64,000 bases of DNA, from positions 124,001-188,000 of the forward strand of contig NZ_JAPZSV010000003.1 of the NCBI RefSeq assembly GCF_027532185.1, given 5' to 3'. The DNA is from Hylemonella sp. GTDB taxonomy: Bacteria > Pseudomonadota > Gammaproteobacteria > Burkholderiales > Burkholderiaceae_C. Positions 26,692 to 39,073 of this stretch are shown here, in pieces. The notes under the pieces are model-generated. The model saw nothing but the letters and a program-made list of their open reading frames with translations, made no database searches and was not told where the DNA came from. Made by a program: the position numbers and the translations under genes. Each line of letters begins with the position of its first letter. Positions within the stretch are counted from its first letter, which is position 1.

Positions 26692-26730
26692 AAAAAAGGC
26701 CAACGCGGCAAGGAACATGCTGCGTCGGCC
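26692..26730 (-). terminator. Intrinsic terminator of the chelatase operon
   Basis: Read on the minus strand, GGCCGACGCAGC (complement of 26719-26730) pairs with GCCGCGTTGGCC (complement of 26698-26709) with one mismatch and one wobble, followed by a six-T run. It lies 27 bases after the DUF2149 stop and ends the receptor-cobN-chaN-exbB-like-DUF2149 transcript. Confidence 0.85.
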
Positions 26731-26756: not shown

Positions 26757-27071
26757 CTATTCGGGGACGTAGACAATGCTGCCGTCCTTCATGCGATAGG
26801 CTGTGCCAGCCTTGTCGCCCTCGCCCTGGCCGATCTGGCCGCTGGCCTTGTAGCGTTCGATCTTCTCCCCCTTCTTGATCATCATCTCCATGGTCGGCTT
26901 GCCGGGATCGGTGATGACGGTCACGTCGCGCTGGCTGAAACTGTTGAGCAGCGGGTTCTGCGCCACGGTGATCAGCAACGCGGCGATGATGACGAGGAAG
27001 ATGTCGATGATGTTGACCACCGACAGGATGGGATCGTCGCTGTCAGATTCGTGCAGCAGCTTGAGGCTCAT
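26757..27071 (-). CDS. DUF2149 protein, ExbD-like membrane partner
   Basis: The 104-residue protein has one N-terminal membrane helix (about residues 18-39, VVNIIDIFLVIIAALLITVA) and a periplasmic C-terminal domain. The topology and an Asp just inside the helix (NIIDIF) mirror ExbD, where LVDVMLV carries the proton-conducting Asp. DUF2149 genes are known beside CobN-like and ExbB-like genes. Its ATG overlaps the ExbB-like stop by four bases, so I infer that the two form one proton channel. HmuV of Porphyromonas/Bacteroides haem operons is, as I recall, of this family. Confidence 0.85.
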   Translation of the reverse strand: MSLKLLHESDSDDPILSVVNIIDIFLVIIAALLITVAQNPLLNSFSQRDVTVITDPGKPTMEMMIKKGEKIERYKASGQIGQGEGDKAGTAYRMKDGSIVYVPE

Positions 27072-27562
27072 GCCGTCTTCCCCTTCTGCTGCAGCAGCAC
27101 CAGCTCCTCGGCCAGCCAGCGGCGACGCACGTTGGCCACCCAGTAGGTGATGCTGGCAGCGATCAGCGCCAGGATCACGGCCGAGAAAGCCACCGTCAGA
27201 CTGCCTGAGACCTGGGCCAGATTGCCGTCGGACAGCGACTTGAGCGCCGGGCCCATGGGGATCATGGTGCCTACCAGGCCCAGCATGGGCGCGACCCGGC
27301 TGGCCAGACGCTCGGGTTCGAGCAGTTTGTGGGCATAGAGGTCGAGCTCGTCTTCGGTGGCTTCAGGCTTTCGCTCGACATAGCGCAGCAAGGGGAAGCC
27401 GCGCTGTCGACCTGTGTCCCGGCGCTGCCAGGCCTGCACGGCAAAGCCACCGAGCACGTAGAGCGAGTAGAGAAAAAGCAAGGCCACCAGCACGAGCACG
27501 GGCAGAAGAAACAGTTGCCCGATCTGGTACATCAGGGTTTCGATCATGGAGCTGGAGCTCAT
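27068..27562 (-). CDS. MotA/TolQ/ExbB-family proton channel protein
   Basis: This is a short (164-residue) inner-membrane ExbB/TolQ relative. A first helix spans about 16-42 (PVLVLVALLFLYSLYVLGGFAVQ). The conserved pair of helices lies at about 94-115 (RVAPMLGLVGTMIPMGPAL) and 125-150 (GSLTVAFSAVILALIAASITYWV). It is distinct from the full ExbB of the tonB operon. Its stop overlaps the start of the DUF2149 gene and its start overlaps the chaN stop, each by four bases. It probably forms a dedicated ion-driven motor for the periplasmic chelatase encoded upstream. That role is inference. Confidence 0.9.
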   Translation of the reverse strand: MSSSSMIETLMYQIGQLFLLPVLVLVALLFLYSLYVLGGFAVQAWQRRDTGRQRGFPLLRYVERKPEATEDELDLYAHKLLEPERLASRVAPMLGLVGTMIPMGPALKSLSDGNLAQVSGSLTVAFSAVILALIAASITYWVANVRRRWLAEELVLLQQKGKTA

Positions 27563-28488
27563 CGGGATTCCTTGGAAGCGGGTTGGGGAGACACAGGGTT
27601 GGAGGATTTGGGGCCGGCCAGACCGGGCAGCGGCATGGCACAGGGATCGGGGCGCTGCTTGCCGGTCGTGAACCAGAGCAGATCGAGACCCGCGCTGTCG
27701 TAGTCCTTGGGCACGGTCTGCCCCGCGTTCACCTCGACCAGGCCGATGGCGAGCGCACGTGCGGGCTCGACCAGGTGGCGCGGCACGGCGCGGTCGCGCC
27801 GGACATGACCGGCACCGGCGATCAGCACCACGGGGCCGGGCACACTGTCGAGCACGGCAGCCATGCGCGCATCCCGCGCACGCTGCGCACCTACCATGCC
27901 GGCCAGGATGGCTGGCGAGGGACGGTGGCCACAGTGGCCCTGGATCACATCGGTTTCCATCAGGCGCTGCTGCTCAGCATCGGCTGCTGGTGGTGCGGGC
28001 TGTTCGCCCAGCACGATGCGGCGCGCCTCGGCACGCGAGAGATTGGCCGCCAGCAGGGGCCAGCCCTGCTCGGCCGCGTGGGCGATGAGGTCACGGTACA
28101 TGGGCCAGCGCCAGCCCTTGCGGTTCAGCTGCCCGGCATCGGCCAGGGCTTCCGCATCGCGCAAACCAGCCTGCTGGGCCTGCCTGAGGGCGGCCTGATG
28201 TTCGGTGTCGAATTGCTCCAGGGCCAGTGCCGGCTTGAGACCGCGCGCGCTCAGGGCCTGCAGCATCTGCAGCTGGCGTGCATGGTGGGCTTCGCTGTCA
28301 TGCTGTTCGCCGAGCAGGACATAACGCGAGGCTGCGGCGCGCTGGAACAACTCGTCCAAGCGGATGTAAGCGCCGGCGTGCACGTCCCAGACGCGGTCCA
28401 GCAAGGGGTGAGGTTCTGTGGTCTGGGCCTGCGCTGCGGCCATCAGGCCCAGCGCCAGGGCCCAGGCCCCCAAAGTGCGTCGTTTCAT
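27559..28488 (-). CDS. ChaN-family haem-binding protein (exported)
   Basis: ChaN proteins are haem-binding members of the EreA/Tiki-like fold, and Campylobacter ChaN is iron-regulated and binds stacked haems. The 309-residue product has YVLLGEQHDSEAHH near residue 47, a GxxHD-type metal/haem site, and PVVLIAGAGHVRRDRAVPRHL near 218. The signal peptide ends AQA at residue 21 with no lipobox Cys, so it is probably soluble in the periplasm rather than a lipoprotein. I chose the ATG at 28488, which overlaps the cobN stop by four bases like its neighbours. An ATG 12 bases earlier is possible. Confidence 0.9.
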   Translation of the reverse strand: MKRRTLGAWALALGLMAAAQAQTTEPHPLLDRVWDVHAGAYIRLDELFQRAAASRYVLLGEQHDSEAHHARQLQMLQALSARGLKPALALEQFDTEHQAALRQAQQAGLRDAEALADAGQLNRKGWRWPMYRDLIAHAAEQGWPLLAANLSRAEARRIVLGEQPAPPAADAEQQRLMETDVIQGHCGHRPSPAILAGMVGAQRARDARMAAVLDSVPGPVVLIAGAGHVRRDRAVPRHLVEPARALAIGLVEVNAGQTVPKDYDSAGLDLLWFTTGKQRPDPCAMPLPGLAGPKSSNPVSPQPASKESR

Positions 28489-31400
28489 GCGCGTTTCCAC
28501 TGTCGCCAGCCTCCAAAGAACACCGCAGCGCCCAGGCAGGCCAGCATCAGCAGCATGCCCAGAGCCTGCACCACGGTCTGGGCCTCGGGCAGCACCTGCT
28601 CCAGCCGCATGCCCTCAACAATCGGCGGTGTCGGCGGCGCGGCTGCGGCCACGGCCTGGGCGTTGGCCGGCTGGGCCGCAATCGGCTTGCCCAGGCCGTA
28701 ACCAGGGAGGCCCACGTACTCCTGGAAGGTCATGTTGTCGCTGCGCACGTCGTGGCGGCGCGCGAGCTCACGGTAGCGCGCCTTGAGCTCTTCCAGCGTG
28801 GCGCGGTCGGGCTGCCAGTAGTCCTGGCGTGCAGTCTCGATCATGCGTTCCATCATCTGGGCCAGCGCGTGCGGGTTGTTCTTCTCGAACCAGTCCTTCA
28901 GGCCCAGCTTGTGCTTGTCGCGCACATAGACGTCGACGAACTCCTGCCACTGGTCGCTGCGCACGATCTCGCGTGCCACCGTGGTCCAGCCCGTGAAGTT
29001 GTTCATGCTGTCGAGCATCTGCAAGGTGCCAGCGTAACCCTCCTTCATCAGGCCCTGGATATGGCCCGGGTGGAAGTTGCGCGTGCCCAGCTCCTTGGCC
29101 AGGAAGTTGCTGGCGTGTTCAGCCTTGCCCGAACCGCTTCCGCGCAGGTTGGAGATGAAGAGTTCGGGCGCCTTGCCATCGAGGTAACGCACGGCCGTGG
29201 AGATGCCACCCAGGTACTGGAAGGGGTCGTCCGTGGTCAGCATGCCGTAGAGGTTGGAGGTGCGCGCCAGCACGGCGGCCTGCGTGCCCTTGAGGTGGGC
29301 GGCGTAAAGATTCAACTCCCCCGCGCCGCGTCCGCCGGCCTCCCGGGCCAGCTCGGCGCCGCTCTTGCCCCACTCGGTCTCGTCGGGACCGAAGGCGTAC
29401 TGCATGCGGCGCAGATAGAGCTCGGCCAGCCTGCGGTCCCCCTGCTCCTTGCCCTTCCAGGTGTCGGTGGCCAGGGCCGCGTCGTCCAGGCCCGATCCGT
29501 ATTCACCCGAGGCGCCCGAGTAGATGCGCGTCTCTCCCGCGCGCTGCGCGGCGTCGTGCCGCCAGCCCTGGGCCACGAGTTGCGCTGCGATGCGGCGACT
29601 GTTGGCCGCCACCGGGTTGTCGCCCTCTTCCACCGCCTGCGCCGCCAGCTGCGCGGCGCGCGCGAGCTGCTTCATGGTGTTGGGAAAATGGTCGCGGTAC
29701 AGGCCGGTGGCCGAGAGCACCACGTCGATGCGCGCACGGCCGAGCTGTGCGCGCGGCACGAGCTTGACGCTGACCACGCGCCCTCCCGCGTCCCATACCG
29801 GCTCCACCCCCAGTGCCCAGAGCGCCTGGGCCTCGAGCATGCCCTGGTGGCGCATGGTCTCGACCGACCAGAGCGTGAAGGTGAACTTGCTCGGCGTCTC
29901 GCCGGTCTTCTCGCGGTGGGCTGCGACGAGCTTGTCCAGCGCCTCCTTGCCCGCGGCCCAGGCCGCCCGGGTGGGCACACGCGAGGGGTCGAAGCCGTAG
30001 AGGTTGCGCCCCGTGGGCAGGCTGTCCGGACTCTTGACCGGATCACCACCATAGGAGGTGGGGATGTAGCGGCCACCCAGGGCCGCCAGGAGCGCGCTGG
30101 TTTCGCCCTCAGCCTTGAGATCGTCGTGCCAGCGACGGCCCTGCTCCAGCTGCTTCTTCAATTCGGCGGGCAGGCCATCCAGGGGCCGCCCTTCAGCCAG
30201 ATGGCTGCGCAGCAGAGTGTAGGGAGCGGTCTGCGTCATCTTCTGGTAGTCGGCGATCAGGGCCTCGTCTGCATCCTCTTGCCGGCCGTTGACATGGCGT
30301 GCCGCGGCTTCCCAGAATGGCTTGCCGAGCATCATCATCACGGTGTACAGGCGCCCCTGCTCGTCGGCGCCTCGGCCGAAGGTGTGCAGCCCCAGCGGGT
30401 GCACCGTCTGAGCCAGCTCGTGCAGGTGGTCGTGCAGCAGGGTGATGAAGGCCGGGAAGTCGGCCGTGATGCGCTCGCGGCTCCAGCCCATGTCCAGGGC
30501 GATGCGTTCCTTGATCACGGCAGCGGTGACCCGCTCGCGCAACTGCTCCTTTACGGCCCCCTCGTCCTGCGCCACCCATGCGTGCAGATCGTCGTGGATG
30601 GTGTTGAGCACGCTGTGCAGCCCGGCTGGTGCCATGGGCGGTGTCTGATGGCTCACGTTGACCGCGCGCCCGCGACGCTTGGTCTGCACCGCCTCGCCGA
30701 TGTTGTCGACGATGTAGGGATAAATCACGGGGATGTCCCCTAGGGCCAGCAGCGGGTCGTCGTCGACCGCGAGACCACGCTCCTTGCCTGGCAGCCACTC
30801 CTGCGTGCCATGGGTGCCATAGTGCACCAGCGCATCGGCGCGGAACTGCTGGCGCATCCAGAGATAGGCCGCCATGTACGAATGCGGCGGCGCGGCGCTC
30901 GTGGAATGGTAAATCTCCTTGGTCTTGGCATAGACGCTCTGCACCACGGGTTCACCGCGCGGTGGCTGCGGCGTGATGATGACGTTGCCCAGCTTGAGGC
31001 GCGGGATCACAAAAAACAGTTCACCCTTGCGACGCACCAGTAGCACGGAGTCTTCGGGCTTGCCAGCGGCGGCGATCCAGGCCTCGCGCCTGGCCTTGGG
31101 CAGGCTGTCCAGCCAATGCCTGTAGCTCGAGAGCGGCAGCAGATCGGCCAGGTCGTCACGCAACAGGGCCTCGAGCTCCTGCGTCGCCTGGCCCGGGCGG
31201 TAGTAGGGTTTGAGCAGGCGCTGCAAACTGGCCAGCAGCGGCTCGGCTGCCGGCGCCTCGGTACGGTAGCCTTGGGCCTTCATCACCGCCAGCGTCTGCT
31301 CGAAGCTCTTGGGCAGGTTCATATAGGACGCACCCAGGTTCTTCTCGCCCGGCGGGTAATTCCAGAACATGAAGGCCACGCGCTTGTCCGCCGGGCTCGT

Positions 31401-32513
31401 GTGCGCGAGTCGCGCGAGGGCCAGCGCCTTGTTCGCCACGGCAGAAGCCTGCTCGGGGATGGGCTGGAGCTGGTCGTTGGCGTCGTTGGCCGCGGCCACC
31501 ATGATGTCGTGCACACCCGCATACTCGGACTGGGCCAGATAGAAAGGCACATCCATCAGGGGAATGCCCACAGGGTCGTTGCGCCAGGCCTGCTCACCCC
31601 CCTTGCGGTAGGCCATGGCCTGGATCACCGGGATACCCAGCTGCTCAAAATCCGACCGACGGCCCTCGGGGTCCAGCGTGATCTGGGTGTTGATCAACAC
31701 ATCCGCCAGTCGCTTACCACCCGGTGCCAGCAAGGCCGGCAACTGGCCCTTGCCCATCACCGGGTTGTAGTAGGCCAGGGCCACGCCACCACCGGCTTCG
31801 ATGCGCGCGATCAGGTCATCGACCAAGCCGCTCTGCTCGGCCGCGATCGCTTGCTGGTGGAAAGCAATGGCCACCACAGGCTGCCCCGGCGCCACCGGGC
31901 CGCGCCAGTGCAGATAGGACGCCGTGTCTGGGAAGACCAGCGTGGGCGCCTTGGGGTGGTAGATGGCCGTGGCCGGAAAAACCTGAGGCGCCGTGATGCC
32001 CACCCAGGGCTTGCCCGCCAGATGCGCGGCCGCAGTGGCGAAGAAATTCGCACTGTTGGCGCGCCCGCCGTTGACGTAATAGGCATGTAGACGCAGGGCC
32101 AGCTCGTCGGGCAGACGGCTCCAGCGCGGCTGGGTGGTGTGCAGCCATAACACGGGCGTCTCGGATTGGGCCAGCGCGGGCAGCGCTGGTGCCAGACGCG
32201 CACCCATCTGTTCCTGGATGTGATCGCGCGGGGCGTCGAAGAACACCATGTCGTAGCCGGCCCAGAGGCTGGCATCGATGGTGCCCAGCTTCTCGACGAA
32301 GCGGGCCTCGACCTTGAGTCCATGCGGGGCAGCCGCCTCGGCCAGGATCTTGAACTTGCCGGGGCTGATGGGGGCTGTGGTGACGAAGAGCAGCGTACCC
32401 GCCGCCCAGGCTGCGGCCGGCATGAGCCAGGCCAGCAGCGTGAGCAGGACACGCCAGGGTGCAAAACACCTGCCCCCCCCTGATTTCGCCTTGTTGTGTG
32501 TAGTGGCTTGCAC
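28485..32513 (-). CDS. cobN: CobN-like tetrapyrrole chelatase, exported and membrane-anchored
   Basis: This is a 1342-residue protein of the CobN/BchH family, whose members insert metals into tetrapyrroles, and in the HmuS type reportedly remove iron from haem. The CobN motif HYGTHGTQEWLPGKERGLA lies near residue 565. Unlike cytosolic CobN it begins with a signal sequence (hydrophobic residues 21-38, ending AAAWA) and ends with a membrane helix (about 1308-1336) followed by a short basic tail. The main domain is therefore probably periplasmic. The start is a GTG with GAGAGG seven bases upstream. Codons 11-14 contain a run of eight G. It follows the receptor gene by 17 bases. No CobS/CobT ATPase partners are nearby. 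Confidence 0.92.
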   Translation of the reverse strand: MQATTHNKAKSGGGRCFAPWRVLLTLLAWLMPAAAWAAGTLLFVTTAPISPGKFKILAEAAAPHGLKVEARFVEKLGTIDASLWAGYDMVFFDAPRDHIQEQMGARLAPALPALAQSETPVLWLHTTQPRWSRLPDELALRLHAYYVNGGRANSANFFATAAAHLAGKPWVGITAPQVFPATAIYHPKAPTLVFPDTASYLHWRGPVAPGQPVVAIAFHQQAIAAEQSGLVDDLIARIEAGGGVALAYYNPVMGKGQLPALLAPGGKRLADVLINTQITLDPEGRRSDFEQLGIPVIQAMAYRKGGEQAWRNDPVGIPLMDVPFYLAQSEYAGVHDIMVAAANDANDQLQPIPEQASAVANKALALARLAHTSPADKRVAFMFWNYPPGEKNLGASYMNLPKSFEQTLAVMKAQGYRTEAPAAEPLLASLQRLLKPYYRPGQATQELEALLRDDLADLLPLSSYRHWLDSLPKARREAWIAAAGKPEDSVLLVRRKGELFFVIPRLKLGNVIITPQPPRGEPVVQSVYAKTKEIYHSTSAAPPHSYMAAYLWMRQQFRADALVHYGTHGTQEWLPGKERGLAVDDDPLLALGDIPVIYPYIVDNIGEAVQTKRRGRAVNVSHQTPPMAPAGLHSVLNTIHDDLHAWVAQDEGAVKEQLRERVTAAVIKERIALDMGWSRERITADFPAFITLLHDHLHELAQTVHPLGLHTFGRGADEQGRLYTVMMMLGKPFWEAAARHVNGRQEDADEALIADYQKMTQTAPYTLLRSHLAEGRPLDGLPAELKKQLEQGRRWHDDLKAEGETSALLAALGGRYIPTSYGGDPVKSPDSLPTGRNLYGFDPSRVPTRAAWAAGKEALDKLVAAHREKTGETPSKFTFTLWSVETMRHQGMLEAQALWALGVEPVWDAGGRVVSVKLVPRAQLGRARIDVVLSATGLYRDHFPNTMKQLARAAQLAAQAVEEGDNPVAANSRRIAAQLVAQGWRHDAAQRAGETRIYSGASGEYGSGLDDAALATDTWKGKEQGDRRLAELYLRRMQYAFGPDETEWGKSGAELAREAGGRGAGELNLYAAHLKGTQAAVLARTSNLYGMLTTDDPFQYLGGISTAVRYLDGKAPELFISNLRGSGSGKAEHASNFLAKELGTRNFHPGHIQGLMKEGYAGTLQMLDSMNNFTGWTTVAREIVRSDQWQEFVDVYVRDKHKLGLKDWFEKNNPHALAQMMERMIETARQDYWQPDRATLEELKARYRELARRHDVRSDNMTFQEYVGLPGYGLGKPIAAQPANAQAVAAAAPPTPPIVEGMRLEQVLPEAQTVVQALGMLLMLACLGAAVFFGGWRQWKRA

Positions 32514-32530
32514 CCCGGAACCTCTCGCTC

Positions 32531-34750
32531 TCAGAAACTGCGTGTCAGGCTGACTGTGAAATTGCGACCCGGCTGGCTGTAGGCGTCAATAACGTTGCTC
32601 GTAGCGCTCAGCCCACGGACATCAGCCCATTCGACATACTTCTTGTCAAAGAGGTTGCGCAGCCCCACATGCAACGTAGTGGCCTTGCTGAAGCTGTACC
32701 AGCCCGTGACATCAAACACCGCGTAACCCCCGGGCGTTGCCGCAGTGGTGCTGGCCGGTCGGTCCTGACGATGGACGGCCGTCATGCGAGTGACAGCCCC
32801 CCAACGGGCACCGCGCGCATAGCCCAGTCCCAGCACCAGTTTGTCAGGATCGACTGTTGCCAACGGCGTGGCGCCAGTCGCAGAGTAGGAGTCTCCCTTG
32901 ACGTGGGCATAAGCCGCCAGCACGTTCCAGCGCGGCGTAAATGCCCAGTCCCCCCGCAGTTCAAAGCCGCTGATCTTGACGCGGCTGAGGTTGATCGACT
33001 GGTAGACGTCGGGCGTCGGTGCCGTGTTGTCCTGCACCAGCTGGTTGTCCGCGATGAAGTTCTTGTAGCGTCCCTGAAACACCGCCATGCTGTAGCGTCG
33101 TTCGCTGTCGCGCCCGCGCAAGCCCAGCTCCAGGGTGTCGCTGGTTTCCGACTTGAGGTTGGGGTTACCAATCGAGGTATAGGGCTGCGCTGCCGTCAGG
33201 TTGGTCACGCCACCGTTGACCTGACTGGCCTTGGGCGCGCGAAAGCCACGCGCGTACTGTGCAAAGGGCTGCGCGAAAGGGGCAAGTTTCCAGATCGCGC
33301 CGAGTCGCGGCGAGACCGCCGAGTCGCTCAGCGTTGCAGGCTCAGTCGTGTTGTTTACACGGTAGTAGGCGTCGGGTTTGGGCGTGAGCTTGAAACTGTC
33401 GAAACGCACCCCCGGAGTGACACTGAATTGACCCACGCCGATCTCATCCTGGACATAGGCGCCGACCGTCTGGTAGTCGGTATCGGGAAAACTCTTGTTG
33501 GGAACAAACGCCGTGCCAGAGCTGTTGTAGCCATCCTTGAAAGACGTCACCTCGGTCTTCGCCAGATCCACGCCATAGACCAAGCGATGCTTGACGTCTT
33601 GACCGAGGTGGGTCTCCATCTGCACGTTTCCGCCGATGGTGTTCTCGCCATACTGGGTGTCACGCGTGCGCACCAGCGGTGCCGCTGATCGCGCCTCAAA
33701 GCCAAACTGCTTGTTGCTGCTCTCCTGGCTGTACAGACTGGCCGTCAGCAGATCAAACCAGGCATGCTGCGGCGCAAAGCGGTAGTCCAGCTTGACCAGA
33801 TCGCGCCGGATGTTTTCTTTCACCTCCACATCGGTCAGCGTGGCTGCGGCAAACGGGTCGCCGAAAAAGCTCAGGATGTCGGTGTTGTTCTCGCGTCGCA
33901 GTGACTCGGCGGAGATCTTGAACTGATGCGTCACGCTCGGCGTGAGCACCAGCTTGGCGAGGACGTAGTCCGACTGCGTCTCGGCCGGGTTGGGCGTCGT
34001 CCGGGAGCTGTTCGCCGCGTCATTGCTACCCATGTTCGAGGTCTCGTGGCCCCGACGCAGACTGGCCAGCACCATGCCCGAAACCGTGTCTCCCTTGAAG
34101 GCAAAGCTGGGGGCAAGTTGCCAGGAGCGGTCCACCGATGCGTAACCGGCCTTGAGATTGAATTGCGTGGGCTTGCCCAGGGTCAGCAGGTCTTGCGGGT
34201 CCTTGGTCACGAAGCTCACGGCGCCAGCCAGGCCATCGGAACCATACTGCGTGCTCGACGCCCCGCGCAGGATCTCGACCCGCTTGTAGCCTTCGGGGTC
34301 GATCATGTCACCGCGGCCTGCGGCATACGGACCGCTGGCGTAGGTGGACGGAAGGCTCACGCCATCGACCTGCAGGCGAACCTGATCGCCTTCGAGGCCC
34401 CGGATGTTCACGCCCTCGTTACCGGCACGCCCCGTCGCACTGAAGACGCCGGAGGCCCGATTGGGCTGTGCCCTCACCGAAACCCCGACCTCGTTGCGCA
34501 TCAGCTCTTCGAGATCCGTCGGGTTCTCGCGCGCTATGTCCTCGGCAGTGATGGAGGTGATCGTCGCCGGCACCTCATCGATCTCCTGCTCCACCCGGCT
34601 ACCGCTGACCACAACCTCCTTCATGGTGCGTCCCTGCGCCAGCTGTACGTCCGTGCTCTGCGCCCAGGCAACGCCGCCGCAGGCCAGGCCTACACCCAGC
34701 GCCAGCCGACTCAGGGAAAAACGACAGTTGCGTTCAGTCTGTGTGTTCAT
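32531..34750 (-). CDS. TonB-dependent receptor, haem/haemoglobin receptor family
   Basis: This is an outer-membrane 22-strand barrel receptor of about 739 residues. It has a signal peptide (ending AWA), a TonB-box-like MKEVVVSGSR, a plug domain with NIRGLEGDQVRLQVDGVSLP and RVEILRGASSTQYGSDGLAGAVSF, and a barrel ending in aromatic Phe. FRAP and NPNL boxes are present (about residues 555-590), as in haem receptors, but no His lies between them, although haem receptors usually carry one there. The ligand may therefore be another tetrapyrrole or metal complex. A Fur-like site lies 113-130 bases upstream. It heads the cobN operon. Confidence 0.92.
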   Translation of the reverse strand: MNTQTERNCRFSLSRLALGVGLACGGVAWAQSTDVQLAQGRTMKEVVVSGSRVEQEIDEVPATITSITAEDIARENPTDLEELMRNEVGVSVRAQPNRASGVFSATGRAGNEGVNIRGLEGDQVRLQVDGVSLPSTYASGPYAAGRGDMIDPEGYKRVEILRGASSTQYGSDGLAGAVSFVTKDPQDLLTLGKPTQFNLKAGYASVDRSWQLAPSFAFKGDTVSGMVLASLRRGHETSNMGSNDAANSSRTTPNPAETQSDYVLAKLVLTPSVTHQFKISAESLRRENNTDILSFFGDPFAAATLTDVEVKENIRRDLVKLDYRFAPQHAWFDLLTASLYSQESSNKQFGFEARSAAPLVRTRDTQYGENTIGGNVQMETHLGQDVKHRLVYGVDLAKTEVTSFKDGYNSSGTAFVPNKSFPDTDYQTVGAYVQDEIGVGQFSVTPGVRFDSFKLTPKPDAYYRVNNTTEPATLSDSAVSPRLGAIWKLAPFAQPFAQYARGFRAPKASQVNGGVTNLTAAQPYTSIGNPNLKSETSDTLELGLRGRDSERRYSMAVFQGRYKNFIADNQLVQDNTAPTPDVYQSINLSRVKISGFELRGDWAFTPRWNVLAAYAHVKGDSYSATGATPLATVDPDKLVLGLGYARGARWGAVTRMTAVHRQDRPASTTAATPGGYAVFDVTGWYSFSKATTLHVGLRNLFDKKYVEWADVRGLSATSNVIDAYSQPGRNFTVSLTRSF

Positions 34751-34934: not shown

Positions 34935-36980
34935 TCAGAAACTGATCTGCAGCCCGGCCCGCAAGCTGCGCCCGGGCAAGGGCGCACGCCCCGGCACCGA
35001 CTGGGTCAGGATGGAACTGGCCGAGTAGGCCAGGGTGTTGCCGATGTTCTCCAGTCGCGCATACCAGAGCAGTGTGCTGCGCTCCACCTTCGTACGGTAG
35101 CTGGCACCCGCATGCCACAAGGTATAGCCCGCCGTGGCCCGTTGTCCCTCGGGCACACGGTCCTGCGCGGCCAGGCGATCTGCACCGATGCGTGCGCTCC
35201 ACTTCCCTTCACTCACCACGAAAGTGGCCCCCAGGCGCATGGGTGCAATGCGCGGCAGCGGCTGCCCCGTGCTCAGGTTGTCGGCGCGCACCACATCGCC
35301 CCGCAGGTTCAGATCCAGACGCCGCGGCCCGGACATCAGGCGCAGATCCGAGCCGGCCTCCAGGCCGCGAAAGCGGGCCTGCATCTGGTCGTAGCGGTAA
35401 GTAGCCGGGTTGGTCGATGCATCGCTGAGCATCAGGCCGATGTAGTTGTCGAACTCGTGCAGAAAGGCCTGCAGCTGCACCCGGTCGGCGCCCTGCTTCC
35501 AGGCCAGCCCCAGGTCCAGATTGCGCGAGCGCTCCAGGCCGAGGTCTGGGTTGCCCACGTCGGTGGTGTTGGTCGCCACGTGGTAGCCGTTGACGAACAT
35601 CTCGTAGTCGCGCGGCGCGCGTTGCGTGGATGAGAAGTTGCCCGTCAGTTGCCAGGCTGGCGCGAGCTGCCATAGCGAACCCAGGGCAAAGCTGCGCGGC
35701 TGGAAACTGCGCTGGCCGACAAAGAAGCCCGAGGCCGTTGGATGCCCCTGGGACGCCACCTGCACCGACTCGGCGCGCACCCCCACGCTCAACCGTCCCC
35801 AGGTGCGCGGCAGATCCTCCTGCACGAACACGGCCGACTGGCGCGTACGACTGAAGGGCGCGAGCACGGTGTCGCCATCGGCCGAGTAGCGCGAACTCTC
35901 GGCCTGCAGGCCCAGTACGCCCTCGAAGGGTCCGAGCGGCGCATGACGCGTCTGCAGGCGCAGGTCGCTGCCGTCGCGGCGAAACAGGGTCAGCGGCGCG
36001 CCGGCGTCGAGCTCGGTGTGGCGATACTCCGTGCGGCTGGCCTGAACCTTCAGCGACTGCAACGGGCCTTGCAGGCGGCGGCGCTCGCCTTCCAGGGCCA
36101 CGCGCACGGTCTGCATGTCGATCATCACGTTCTCCTCTGCCACCGTGCCGTACTCGCTGCCATAGCTGGTGACAGACAAGCCGAAGTAGCCTTCGTCACC
36201 GAAAACCGAGGCCCCCAGCGCCCCACCCCAGGACCGGGCGGCCGAGTTACACAGGCGCTGAGCCTGGATGGTGGCGCCACCACGTGAGCAGCTCAACGTG
36301 ATCGGTACCGACATGTCCTGCGCGTTGCGCGACATCACGTCGGCGTGCACGGTGTAACGCGCATTGCCGGCTTCCAGCACCAGGGCGCCGGCGCGCTCGC
36401 GGTTGCCCGTGGCCAGGCTTGCATCGGCGCGGCCGCTGACGCCGCCGGCCGCGTCGAACTGCGGCTCGCGCGGGATGCGGTTGTCGATGACGTTGACCAC
36501 ACCGCCCACGGCGTTGCCGCCGTACTGCAGGGCCGCCGGCCCGCGCACCACCTCCACGCGCTCCATCACCAGAGGGTCCATGGGCACGGCATGGTCATAG
36601 CTCTGCCCCGAGAGATCGGTCGTCGGCGCGCCATTGCTCAGCAGTCGGATACGCTCGCCGTCGAGCCCGCGGATCACGGGGCGACTGGCATTGGGACCGA
36701 AATAGGTGCTGCTGACCCCGGGCAGGCCATCGAGCGTCTGTCCCAGGGTGGACTGACCGCGCTGTGTCAGTTCCTCACCGGCCAGCACGCTGACAGGCGC
36801 GATCTGCTCCGCAGCCCCCAGCGGATTGGCAGTGACCGTGACAGGCGCCAGCGTAGCGTTGCCTTCTTCGGCCACCGCCTGGGCTCGGGCGTCCTGGGCC
36901 GCCCACCCTAGCAGAGAGATCCCAAGCAGGCCGCAGGCAGGCACCACACGCAACATTCGAGTTCGGACCGCGCGACTCAT
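34935..36980 (-). CDS. ZnuD-like TonB-dependent receptor
   Basis: This outer-membrane receptor of about 681 residues is similar to Neisseria ZnuD (zinc uptake, also linked to haem). Diagnostic segments are TYFGPNASRPVIRGLDGERIRLLSNG near residue 85, SGQSYDHAVPMDPLVMERVEVVRGPAALQYGGNAVGGVVNVIDNRIP near 124, and a barrel with QRAP then GYHVATNTTDVGNPDL. A signal peptide ends AQA. The ATG at 36980 was chosen because the in-frame TTG further upstream would overlap the Fur-like operator. No ribosome site is visible. It is transcribed divergently from tonB. Ligand is uncertain: Zn, haem or another metal complex. Confidence 0.88.
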   Translation of the reverse strand: MSRAVRTRMLRVVPACGLLGISLLGWAAQDARAQAVAEEGNATLAPVTVTANPLGAAEQIAPVSVLAGEELTQRGQSTLGQTLDGLPGVSSTYFGPNASRPVIRGLDGERIRLLSNGAPTTDLSGQSYDHAVPMDPLVMERVEVVRGPAALQYGGNAVGGVVNVIDNRIPREPQFDAAGGVSGRADASLATGNRERAGALVLEAGNARYTVHADVMSRNAQDMSVPITLSCSRGGATIQAQRLCNSAARSWGGALGASVFGDEGYFGLSVTSYGSEYGTVAEENVMIDMQTVRVALEGERRRLQGPLQSLKVQASRTEYRHTELDAGAPLTLFRRDGSDLRLQTRHAPLGPFEGVLGLQAESSRYSADGDTVLAPFSRTRQSAVFVQEDLPRTWGRLSVGVRAESVQVASQGHPTASGFFVGQRSFQPRSFALGSLWQLAPAWQLTGNFSSTQRAPRDYEMFVNGYHVATNTTDVGNPDLGLERSRNLDLGLAWKQGADRVQLQAFLHEFDNYIGLMLSDASTNPATYRYDQMQARFRGLEAGSDLRLMSGPRRLDLNLRGDVVRADNLSTGQPLPRIAPMRLGATFVVSEGKWSARIGADRLAAQDRVPEGQRATAGYTLWHAGASYRTKVERSTLLWYARLENIGNTLAYSASSILTQSVPGRAPLPGRSLRAGLQISF

Positions 36981-36982
36981 CG

Positions 36983-37003
36983 TAATGAGAATTAATAGCA
37001 ATT
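36983..37003 (-). promoter_or_regulatory. Fur-like box at the ZnuD-like receptor start
   Basis: TAATGAGAATTAATAGCAATT fits tandem Fur hexamers better than a Zur palindrome. It abuts the chosen start codon and overlaps a possible minus-strand -10 (TATTAA, 36992-36997). This implies either a very short leader or a start slightly further downstream (an ATG at 36956 is available). Confidence 0.55.
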
Positions 37004-37116: not shown

Positions 37117-37138
37117 AAGAATAGTTCTCATTTATAAT
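37117..37138 (+). promoter_or_regulatory. Fur-like box and -10 element of the tonB operon
   Basis: AAGAATAGTTCTCATTTA (37117-37134) resembles a Fur box and overlaps a perfect TATAAT at 37133-37138. Its reverse complement TAAATGAGAACTATTCTT makes the NATNAT pattern clear. Repression by iron-loaded Fur would cover the promoter. The predicted transcription start is near 37145, almost at the first codon of the next ORF. Confidence 0.65.
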
Positions 37139-37246: not shown

Positions 37247-37924
37247 ATGAGTCTGTCCCTCACTGCACCGCCCGCGCCTCACATGAACCGTCGCCTGCTG
37301 ATTGCCACCAGCGTGGTCCTGCTGCACGTCTTCGTGCTCTGGGCTCTCCAGACCGGCCTGATGCGCCGCGCGGTGGAGATCATCGTGCCCGGCGAAATCC
37401 TCAGCGAGTTCATCAGCCCGCCAGCGCCGCCCGCGCCCCAGCCGCAGGCCCCCGCACCGCAGCCGGTCAAGCAGGAGGTGAAGCCGGTGGTGAAACCCAC
37501 CCCGACCCCACCGCTGCCCGCCCCCACTCCTGAGCCTGCGCCTATGGTGGCACCCGCTGCCCCGGTGCCGGCCCAGCCTGCCATTGAAGCCAGCACGGTG
37601 GCCGCCGCGCCCGCCGCACCGCAGGCACCGGCCCCGGCACGCATCGAACTGCCCTCCAGCGATGCGGCCTATCTGAACAACCCCAAACCCTCCTACCCGG
37701 CGCTGAGCCGCCGCCTGGGCGAACAGGGCAAGGTGGTGGTGCGCGTGCTCATCGGCGTGGACGGCACGGCCCAGCAGGCCGAGATCCGCACGTCCAGTGG
37801 CTACGAACGCCTGGACCAGGCCGCGTTGGCCACCGTGCGCAGCTGGCGCTACGTGCCCGGCAAGCGCAACGGCACGGTTGAGGCCATGTGGTTCAACGTG
37901 CCGATCAACTTCGTGCTCGAATAA
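37247..37924 (+). CDS. tonB: TonB energy-transducing protein
   Basis: TonB couples the inner-membrane proton gradient to outer-membrane receptors. The 225-residue protein has an N-terminal anchor (about residues 16-33), a long Pro/Ala-rich periplasmic spacer (about 60-140, with PAPPAP and PTPTPP repeats) and a C-terminal TonB domain (YPALSRRLGEQGKVVVRVLIGVDG near 146, YERLDQAALATVRSWRYVPGKRNG near 186). An internal ATG at 37283 (MNRRLLIA) is an alternative start and gives a more usual N-terminus. exbB follows 20 bases downstream. Confidence 0.95.
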   Translation: MSLSLTAPPAPHMNRRLLIATSVVLLHVFVLWALQTGLMRRAVEIIVPGEILSEFISPPAPPAPQPQAPAPQPVKQEVKPVVKPTPTPPLPAPTPEPAPMVAPAAPVPAQPAIEASTVAAAPAAPQAPAPARIELPSSDAAYLNNPKPSYPALSRRLGEQGKVVVRVLIGVDGTAQQAEIRTSSGYERLDQAALATVRSWRYVPGKRNGTVEAMWFNVPINFVLE

Positions 37925-37944
37925 TTTTTCCTTTGGAGTCTGCT

Positions 37945-38658
37945 ATGGAATCGCATTTCGGTCTGTACAACGTCTGGGCTCAGGGTGACTGGGTTACACG
38001 CGGGGTCGCCCTCCTCCTGCTGGGCATGTCCCTGGCCACCTGGATGGTGATCCTGTTCAAGGCCATGGACCTCGTGCGTTACAAGAAGCTGGCGCGCCAG
38101 GCCGAGGGCTTCTGGCATAGCGCCGATCTGGCCGAGGGCCTGAACCGCCTGGGCCCGCCCGAGGACAACCCCTTCCGCGCCCTGGCTGAGGAAGGCCGCG
38201 AGGCCGTGGCACACCACCGCAACACCAAGTCGCATCTGCATGACAGCCTGGACGTGAGCGACTGGGTGACACGCTGCCTGCGCAACAGCATCGACCACGC
38301 CACCGCCCGCCTGCAGTCGGGCCTGGCCGTGCTGGCCTCGGTGGGCTCCACCGCCCCCTTCGTCGGCCTGTTCGGTACGGTCTGGGGCATCTACCACGCG
38401 CTGCTGAGCATCGGCATGGCCGGCCAGGCCACCATCGACCGTGTGGCTGGCCCCATCGGTGAGGCGCTGATCATGACGGCCCTGGGCCTAGCCGTGGCCA
38501 TCCCCGCGGTGCTGGGCTACAACGCCCTGGTGCGCGGCAACAAGGCCGTGCTGGGCACGCTCAACAGCTTTGCGCACGACCTGCACGCCTACTTCGTCAC
38601 CGGTGCCCGCGTGGGCGGCGGCGCAGACGCCAAGATCGTGCCCATGAAGAAGGCCTGA
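37945..38658 (+). CDS. exbB: Biopolymer transport protein ExbB
   Basis: ExbB is the inner-membrane proton-channel scaffold of the TonB complex. The 237-residue protein has three predicted helices: about 22-42, then the conserved pair at about 127-150 (GSTAPFVGLFGTVWGIYHAL) and 170-192 (IGEALIMTALGLAVAIPAVLGYNAL). GGAG six bases before the ATG fixes the start. A longer open frame begins inside tonB and was discarded. It lies between tonB and exbD. Confidence 0.97.
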   Translation: MESHFGLYNVWAQGDWVTRGVALLLLGMSLATWMVILFKAMDLVRYKKLARQAEGFWHSADLAEGLNRLGPPEDNPFRALAEEGREAVAHHRNTKSHLHDSLDVSDWVTRCLRNSIDHATARLQSGLAVLASVGSTAPFVGLFGTVWGIYHALLSIGMAGQATIDRVAGPIGEALIMTALGLAVAIPAVLGYNALVRGNKAVLGTLNSFAHDLHAYFVTGARVGGGADAKIVPMKKA

Positions 38659-38662
38659 TGCC

Positions 38663-39073
38663 ATGGCTTTCGGAACCCAGGACGACACCGACGAGGTGAT
38701 GAACGAGATCAACATGACGCCGCTGGTCGACGTCATGCTGGTGCTGCTCATCATCTTCATCATCACCGTGCCGGTGATGAAGCACTCCGTCAACGTGGAT
38801 CTGCCGCAGGCCAGCAGCCAGCGCGAAGAGGTCAAGCCCGAGACGCTCAACCTCTCGGTGGACGCCAGCGGCAACTACTTCATCAACGAGTCGCGCGTCA
38901 GCGATACCGATCTGCCCCGCCTGCTGCAGGCCGAGGCCGCGCGCCAGCCCCAGCCCGACTTGCACATCCGTGGCGACAAGGCGGTGCGTTACGAGCGCGT
39001 CGCCCAGGCCATGGCCATGGCCCAGCAGGCGGGCCTGCGCAAGATCGGCTTCATCACCGAACCCGCACGCTGA
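38663..39073 (+). CDS. exbD: Biopolymer transport protein ExbD
   Basis: ExbD is the periplasmic-domain partner of ExbB. The 136-residue protein has one N-terminal helix (about 21-38, LVDVMLVLLIIFIITVPV) with the essential Asp23, preceded by EINMTP. A periplasmic domain ends in AMAMAQQAGLRKIGFITEP. It starts four bases after exbB and is followed by hemP, all apparently one Fur-controlled operon. Confidence 0.97.
   Translation: MAFGTQDDTDEVMNEINMTPLVDVMLVLLIIFIITVPVMKHSVNVDLPQASSQREEVKPETLNLSVDASGNYFINESRVSDTDLPRLLQAEAARQPQPDLHIRGDKAVRYERVAQAMAMAQQAGLRKIGFITEPAR

Follow-up and report, generated by a model that had tools for sequence, protein, structure and literature searches.

A stretch of 64,000 nucleotides from contig NZ_JAPZSV010000003.1 of Hylemonella sp. 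(hereafter the window, to whose numbering all coordinates refer) contains a minus-strand operon in which a large chelatase of the CobN superfamily is encoded behind a haem-type TonB-dependent receptor. The familiar complexes with such large subunits, CobNST and ChlHID/BchHID, are cytosolic and driven by ATP, and the locus raises the question of what a CobN-like protein does in this company, and what powers it in a genome with no match to CobT (PF06213; CobS was not searched for). An earlier account made from the DNA letters alone (the sequence-only reading) had argued that neither ATP nor CobST is available in the periplasm and suggested that a tetrapyrrole gains or loses its metal there at the expense of the proton gradient. 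We favor one form of this, with a probability of roughly 0.55: the operon would serve Fur-controlled haem import and periplasmic removal of the haem iron, driven by a proton motor consisting of its ExbB-type and DUF2149 products.

The five genes run in the order receptor, cobN, chaN, an exbB/tolQ-type gene and a DUF2149 gene (Table 1), and each product lies above the curated cut-off of its own Pfam family, in agreement with the sequence-only reading for the operon and for its HmuU- and HmuV-like members. A 17-base gap separates the receptor gene from cobN; the four-base overlaps reported from cobN onward are present at all three junctions, cobN/chaN (counting chaN from the ATG at 28488; a GTG at 28500 is an alternative start), chaN/exbB, and exbB/DUF2149. 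The terminator placed behind the operon is also recovered, in that the stretch 26752-26686 folds at -26.8 kcal/mol (z -3.06, equalled by 2 of 200 shuffles) into a long stem followed by UUUUUU, though a strict terminator pattern scan did not list this hairpin.

Table 1. Features of the chelatase operon and its neighbors, in window coordinates.
Feature	Position	Strand	Basis
TonB-dependent receptor, haem type (PhuR-like)	34750-32531	-	TIGR01786/TIGR01785 above cut-off; PDB 8THE 327 bits
CobN/HmuS-superfamily chelatase or dechelatase, predicted periplasmic	32513-28485	-	PF02514 951 bits; 1342 residues
CobN C-terminal tail (GMRLE motif and membrane helix), proposed motor docking element	28488-28619	-	tail profile
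ChaN-family protein (Tiki superfamily), signal-like N terminus, candidate haem binder	28488-27559	-	PF04187 130 bits
Short ExbB/TolQ-type proton-channel subunit (HmuU-like), 164 residues	27562-27068	-	PF01618
DUF2149 protein (HmuV-like), 104 residues, one membrane helix and small C-terminal domain	27071-26757	-	PF09919 102 bits
Fur-like operator before receptor gene	34874-34862		AATGATTCTCATG, 11/13 match to consensus AATGATAATCATT
Hairpin terminator and T run	26692-26730	-	fold of 26752-26686
Upstream neighbor, ZnuD-like TonB receptor	34935-37001	-	NF038289 279 bits, below 950 cut-off
tonB, exbB, exbD, ordinary TonB energiser	37247-39073	+	PF03544, PF01618, PF02472, open reading frames

The case for haem begins with the receptor, which had been assigned to the haem-receptor family and indeed passes both NCBIfam haem/haemoglobin receptor models; PhuR is its nearest solved structure, and the runner-up scores only 83 bits. 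Receptors were classed over 90 related loci by their plug and loop motifs, giving 55 of haem type, 30 of CirA type and five of Zur type (there are 122 distinct CobN places in total, and the 32 without a classed receptor lie outside the 90-locus counts). The column of window Tyr524, in the loop between the FRAP and NPxL motifs that we take to be the carrier of a haem ligand, is a Tyr in 54 of the 55 haem-type receptors and a His in all 30 CirA-like ones. PhuR is reported to coordinate haem through a His-Tyr motif (PMC12670364, in part), and the window receptor shares the loop Tyr with it.

ChaN follows the same classes, being present in 24 of the 55 haem-type operons and in none of the 35 others (Fisher 8e-7, with the loci treated as independent though they are related). 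Its gene takes any of three places, behind cobN, behind the DUF2149 gene, or between the receptor gene and cobN, which looks like repeated recruitment for one cargo, and because the ChaN label needs at least seven changes on the tree it is not a single inherited block. Beyond the 90 classed loci it is found at L187 (partial receptor, weak ChaN match) and at L200 (receptor not classed). The only solved relative of the window protein at E <= 0.001 is 2G5G (E 2e-14), which we take to be the Campylobacter jejuni ChaN; the two belong to the same family, and the window protein, a putative haem binder, differs in sitting inside a chelatase operon. Some haem-type operons have a DUF4019-type protein between CobN and ExbB (L089:13338-14186, and L183:12891-13799 with a weaker match).

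The predicted operator points to iron. A Fur-like site had been claimed in front of the operon, and it is found about 110 bases before the receptor start, with a match that none of 100 shuffles equals and with comparable sites in relatives; by this match the locus would fit a Fur regulon. For the relatives, 420-base stretches upstream of 89 of the 90 receptors (one had fewer than 300 bases upstream) were scanned at a cut-off of p <= 0.05, with the groups taken from a first receptor sorting by score cut (62 haem and 28 CirA, seven of them misplaced). Of the 24 haem-type operons that include ChaN, 17 have a Fur-like site, as against about 1 expected; so do 12 of the 37 other loci first sorted as haem (seven of these 37 being the misplaced ones) and 15 of the 28 CirA-type loci; L035 and L039 fail the scan because their sites, seen separately, fall outside the 420-base stretch.

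The window CobN scores about equally against HmuS (9D26, 353 bits), CobN (314 and 306 bits) and ChlH (287 bits), and its nearest named loci, at 70-72 percent identity, are mostly from Rhodoferax. Related CobN loci are also present in Azospira oryzae and Rubrivivax gelatinosus. Its placement in the periplasm, as proposed earlier, is supported by hydrophobic segments at both ends, with a maximum 16-residue hydropathy of 1.9 at the N terminus and 2.5 at the C terminus, the signal-like character of the former being judged by hydropathy and not by a dedicated signal-peptide predictor. Hydropathy of at least 1.4 at both ends is seen in 54 rows of the alignment (the haem-plus-ChaN, haem, CirA and L044-type groups); neither segment is present in six BchH and six cytosolic CobN rows, and the BchH rows reach at most 0.4 at the N terminus and have no C-terminal extension. 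Among other motor-linked rows, the open reading frame used for L043 has no N-terminal stretch and several edge-cut rows lack the C-terminal one. The catalytic His568, equivalent to His538 of HmuS, is kept in the motif HYGTHG as compared with HFG(T/A)HG; as there is a His in this column in 100 of 101 superfamily rows, it is not diagnostic of HmuS.

In a quick IQ-TREE run, made with no mixture model and with PA1923 not among the rows, one fully supported (100) set of 16 rows consists of cytosolic CobN (six rows), BchH (six) and CobN-like x rows (four), and the window CobN lies in another fully supported set, of 66 rows, with members from cobalamin, zinc and Fur-type operons. It therefore stands apart from both cytosolic CobN and BchH, as the sequence-only reading supposed; neither grouping with cytosolic cobaltochelatases nor a CobT elsewhere in the genome was found (CobS lay outside that search). 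The HmuS-type proteins L231 (Aureibacter) and L043, which score 1272 and 1108 bits to 9D26 against 353 for the window, also have tree positions elsewhere than the window CobN. L043 (L043:177-9424), whose host belongs to the same family as that of the window, encodes HmuS with a haem receptor, ExbB, DUF2149, a FUR-family gene and an unassigned gene in the HmuT position, which amounts to an hmu-like operon outside Bacteroidota. One scan of viral contigs gave no relative of the window CobN.

As to what would power such an enzyme, the ExbB-type product is confidently modeled (pLDDT 95.5), its top Foldseek matches are TolQ/ExbB (E 0.017 or weaker, probability up to 1.00), and Thr99, which does not vary across 46 rows, matches the Thr of genuine ExbB in the alignment. 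The DUF2149 product has a nearly invariant Asp23 in its single membrane helix (40 aligned sequences). The pair is thus like ExbB-ExbD, TolQ-TolR and MotA-MotB in having an ExbB-type subunit with the channel Thr and a second subunit with one Asp-bearing helix; it is unlike them in its shorter ExbB, its different DUF2149 C-terminal domain and its lack of TonB or TolA, and the proposed target is the tailed chelatase. That DUF2149 is a plain ExbD homologue was suggested by the membrane helix and was set aside, profile and fold comparisons being insufficient to establish it. Among 150 genomes of the window's family there are 26 DUF2149 loci, all 26 with ExbB beside them and 24 with CobN, and the two remaining genomes have no PF02514 match anywhere.

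In the CobN-free genomes the neighbor of the ExbB-DUF2149 pair (L045:3927-5613 and L049:3976-5866, both minus strand) is a Sel1-repeat protein that has a hydrophobic stretch at its N terminus and a membrane segment at its C terminus, and no receptor gene is present in the stretch fetched around either motor. A profile was built from 52 CobN tails, which have a V-x-G-x-x-L-E type motif, a helix, and then G-A-W-x-Q-R-R, and was searched over 9781 open reading frames, 763 of which have a C-terminal hydrophobic segment. Its best non-CobN matches are the two Sel1 proteins (E 4.1e-5 and 0.0016), whose block-shuffled tails reach the real score in 0 of 400 cases each; each of these Sel1 genes appears a second time, at L020 and L022, and the other unlabelled matches to E 0.028 prove, by a check with the CobN profile, to be pieces of CobN cut off where short loci end. 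The tail is also present in CobN proteins outside the profile set, both in the main groups (L162, L202, L207) and elsewhere (L141, L233, L102, L232), and the profile has no match in BchH, the six cytosolic CobN or the four x rows. Because motors without CobN stand beside Sel1 proteins with a CobN-like tail, it is probable that the tail is a motor docking element in the window's branch, and the shared tail and the CobN-free motors together offer indirect evidence that the motor energises the chelatase.

The host genome suggests where the iron would go. It is 3.33 Mb in size and has two PF02514 genes, the window cobN and a bchH with bchL and bchM alongside. It has no HO-1-type haem oxygenase (other haem oxygenase families were not searched for), no HemS, and no recognised FecCD-type haem permease (dipeptide-type and other haem permeases were not searched for); here it is unlike the PhuR setting, as its single FecCD permease gene is clustered with CobB, CobQ, a B12-type receptor and a cobalamin riboswitch. 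FeoB is present. With this complement, haem iron would most simply be freed in the periplasm and then imported as Fe(II).

From these observations we infer the following course of events. Iron limitation would lead Fur to release the operon, and haem would enter the periplasm through the PhuR-like receptor, with energy supplied by the neighboring tonB-exbB-exbD set; there ChaN would hold it or hand it over. The membrane-tailed CobN-like enzyme would then take the iron out of the porphyrin via His568, with the small ExbB/DUF2149 pair serving as a dedicated proton motor of the stator type that attaches to the CobN tail, drives the working cycle, and stands in for the ATP-driven CobS/CobT or ChlI/ChlD rings; the Fe(II) would then be imported by FeoB.

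Part of this has a precedent in the hmu system of Bacteroidota (PDB 9D26; PMC12583661, PMC13227078), where conversion of haem to protoporphyrin IX and Fe(II) by HmuS has been demonstrated (PMC12583661). That system shares with the window a receptor, a CobN-superfamily enzyme, an ExbB-like protein and HmuV/DUF2149, and HmuS has a signal peptide (signal-like in the window) and a C-terminal membrane helix as well as the equivalent catalytic His. The suggestion that the window has the same modules goes too far, however. Of the hmuYRSTUV set, the five genes include counterparts of R, S, U and V and nothing resembling HmuY or HmuT; ChaN is extra, and most of the residues that define HmuS are absent; judged by its residues, the window CobN is not a canonical HmuS. 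CobNST and ChlHID/BchHID, described as cytosolic and ATP-driven in the relevant part of PMC7689651, are like the window in large-subunit family and catalytic His, with an Asp/Gln pair as in CobN, and differ from it in lacking the signal-like N terminus and the tail of the window CobN, whose genome has no CobT match.

A number of findings weigh against haem demetallation by a motor-driven CobN. In the enzyme itself, the haem-site-1 ligands Met79 and His254 of HmuS are replaced by Pro95 and Gln277 (none of 17 haem-plus-ChaN rows carries Met or His in these columns); the HmuS motif LSLDHxxEFMGG with His1209 and Glu1212 is not found, the window reading LTTDDPFQYLGG, with the cobaltochelatase residues Asp1096 and Gln1099 at these two positions; the Met-rich insertion (HmuS domain IV) is absent, window residues 650-860 comprising 210 amino acids with five Met, and the aligned stretch of the HmuS-type L043 spanning 457; and NCBIfam files the protein, above cut-off, as CobN. 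The plug His of PhuR is not conserved in the aligned stretch of the window receptor, which weakens the case for haem somewhat. ChaN is missing from 31 of the 55 haem-type operons (seven of them cut within 2.5 kb of CobN), HO-1-type haem oxygenase is present in three of 10 other haem-type genomes searched, and no electron donor is evident among the five operon genes, though HmuS is reported to need NADH. On the side of the motor, only 17 membrane columns of DUF2149 align with the ExbD profile (probability 29.8, E 5.6e-4) and a fold search with the DUF2149 model (pLDDT 70) gave no match; these comparisons do not establish kinship, and the likeness to ExbD is one of layout only. With the tail profile, only two of the seven cobalamin-riboswitch-group rows are matched (three of those missed are cut at the stretch end), as are two of 12 mixed 'other' rows, several of which show a similar V-x-G-x-x motif by eye, and none of 10 HmuS-like rows. 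Finally, the Cupriavidus-type loci L102 and L232 have a tailed CobN with no ExbB or DUF2149 in the fetched stretch; the L102 genome has one DUF2149 elsewhere. In these loci (L102:1143-9211, Cupriavidus campinensis; L232:7446-16510, from the window's order) the tailed CobN adjoins a cytosolic CobN.

An alternative is that the same machine handles a different cargo, an Fe or Co chelate (corrinoid, modified haem or some other metallated tetrapyrrole), from which CobN would strip or exchange the metal. The Asp1096/Gln1099 pair is shared with cobaltochelatases and with the cobalamin-riboswitch group, close CobN relatives are accompanied by CirA-like receptors that have the loop His in place of Tyr and often a Fur-like site, and related motor-linked CobN occur in cobalamin, zinc and nickel settings. 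We nonetheless regard this as unlikely, since no other solved receptor comes near PhuR in score, ChaN is restricted to haem-type receptors among the 90 classed loci, and the locus has no cobalamin riboswitch. Indeed none is found in the whole window, and with no CobT in the genome we reject a cobalamin reading of this locus. Active-site residues are also shared with CobN, which inserts its metal, but operation in the chelatase direction seems improbable given an operator of the iron-starvation type and an importing receptor, and given that HmuS, a characterised relative of this topology, removes metal (PMC12583661, in part); the context thus favors iron removal. A zinc system is more doubtful still. 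The precedent is the Zur-controlled operon PA1922-PA1925 of P. aeruginosa, which has a receptor, a CobN-like protein and an ExbD-annotated protein (reported in part of PMC4542158); the module set and its metal-starvation control are similar, and the receptor next to our operon is ZnuD-like, but the window operator is Fur-like and not Zur-like, for which reason we do not take the locus to be a zinc system. Zur-like sites do occur in front of other operons, five of which belong to a group with a His/Glu active site.

A rather different possibility is that ExbB/DUF2149 is an accessory energiser of the outer-membrane receptor and that CobN works unpowered. The Fig. 1 legend of the EMBO J report on hmu (PMC12583661) assigns HmuU and HmuV to receptor energisation, heterologously expressed HmuS is described there as converting haem in an NADH-dependent manner, and motor and receptor do share one operon. 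Yet an ordinary tonB-exbB-exbD set lies next door to the window operon, a separate set accompanies the Trichlorobacter cluster, and the two motor genes include no TonB; moreover, two genomes have the motor beside a Sel1 protein, with no receptor gene in the stretch fetched, and the shared tail points to a periplasmic effector. We consider this possibility somewhat less likely than a different cargo, and retain iron removal by a motor-driven CobN as the preferred interpretation.

Sequence and gene company place the window CobN in a larger family, in which a CobN with a membrane tail is combined with ExbB and DUF2149. Its members are found in iron, zinc, cobalt and nickel settings, marked by Fur-like sites, Zur-like sites, cobalamin riboswitches and neighboring hydrogenase genes, respectively. 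It is tempting, though short of an even bet, to view the signal-peptide CobN with its conserved tail and minimal ExbB-DUF2149 motor as a general proton-driven machine for periplasmic metallation or demetallation, directed to iron, zinc, cobalt or nickel by exchange of the receptor, the operator and an accessory gene (for haem, ChaN), with a separable motor that recognises the tail and also drives at least one unrelated effector, a Sel1-repeat protein. A periplasmic CobN-type dechelatase in a receptor operon of Bacteroidota and a similar zinc operon of P. aeruginosa are already published. The present enzyme branch and the motor link look new: searches of the open-licence PMC literature turned up no title or abstract opening on a Fur-type betaproteobacterial branch with ChaN, on the spread of the triad over several metals or on the shared tail. 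If our interpretation is correct, extracytoplasmic removal of haem iron, recently shown in gut Bacteroidota, would extend to environmental Betaproteobacteria via a different enzyme branch; tetrapyrrole chelatases would have a third mode of operation, beside AAA+ rings and the unaided HemH/CbiK types; chelatase work would be added to the few known tasks of ExbB/Tol/Mot motors; and DUF2149 would gain a function, as would those proteins that are annotated as cobaltochelatase CobN although their genomes have no CobT. The tail offers a direct and cheap handle on how the motor finds its target.

Relatives of the operon are varied. L097, L098, L101, L143 and L144 are CobN-ExbB-DUF2149 operons with a receptor of a further type, a Zur-like site within the 420-base stretch before it, and a His/Glu active site; they fall in the L044-type group, which has His/Glu at 1209/1212 in seven of seven members, and are likely zinc versions, perhaps akin to PA1922-PA1925. 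Of nine family-survey loci with the order ExbB-DUF2149-CobN, seven have a cobalamin riboswitch, as does one (L104) of seven further loci of that order scanned later. A triad lies beside cobalamin genes on a Trichlorobacter plasmid, together with the separate exbB-exbD-tonB set, and about 7 kb from nikR on an Azospirillum plasmid. On a Runella plasmid (L230:3095-11129), ExbB, DUF2149 and CobN are encoded inside a hydrogenase-maturation cluster together with a receptor and a membrane protein whose matches to NicO and DsbD are weak and below cut-off; this triad is likely a nickel version. A further class (L106-L112, L145-L148) has a membrane-tailed CobN of about 1500 residues, without the tail motif, together with ExbB and a divergent DUF2149, except that no DUF2149 was found with the profile in L148; the nine aligned members have Asn-Asp and Asp at 1208, 1209 and 1212. 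In the window itself, the tonB-exbB-exbD set is divergent from the ZnuD-like receptor gene, both adjoining the operon and neither mentioned in the sequence-only reading, and by eye there are Fur-like, and not Zur-like, sequences near that receptor gene at 36984-36996 and 37120-37132.

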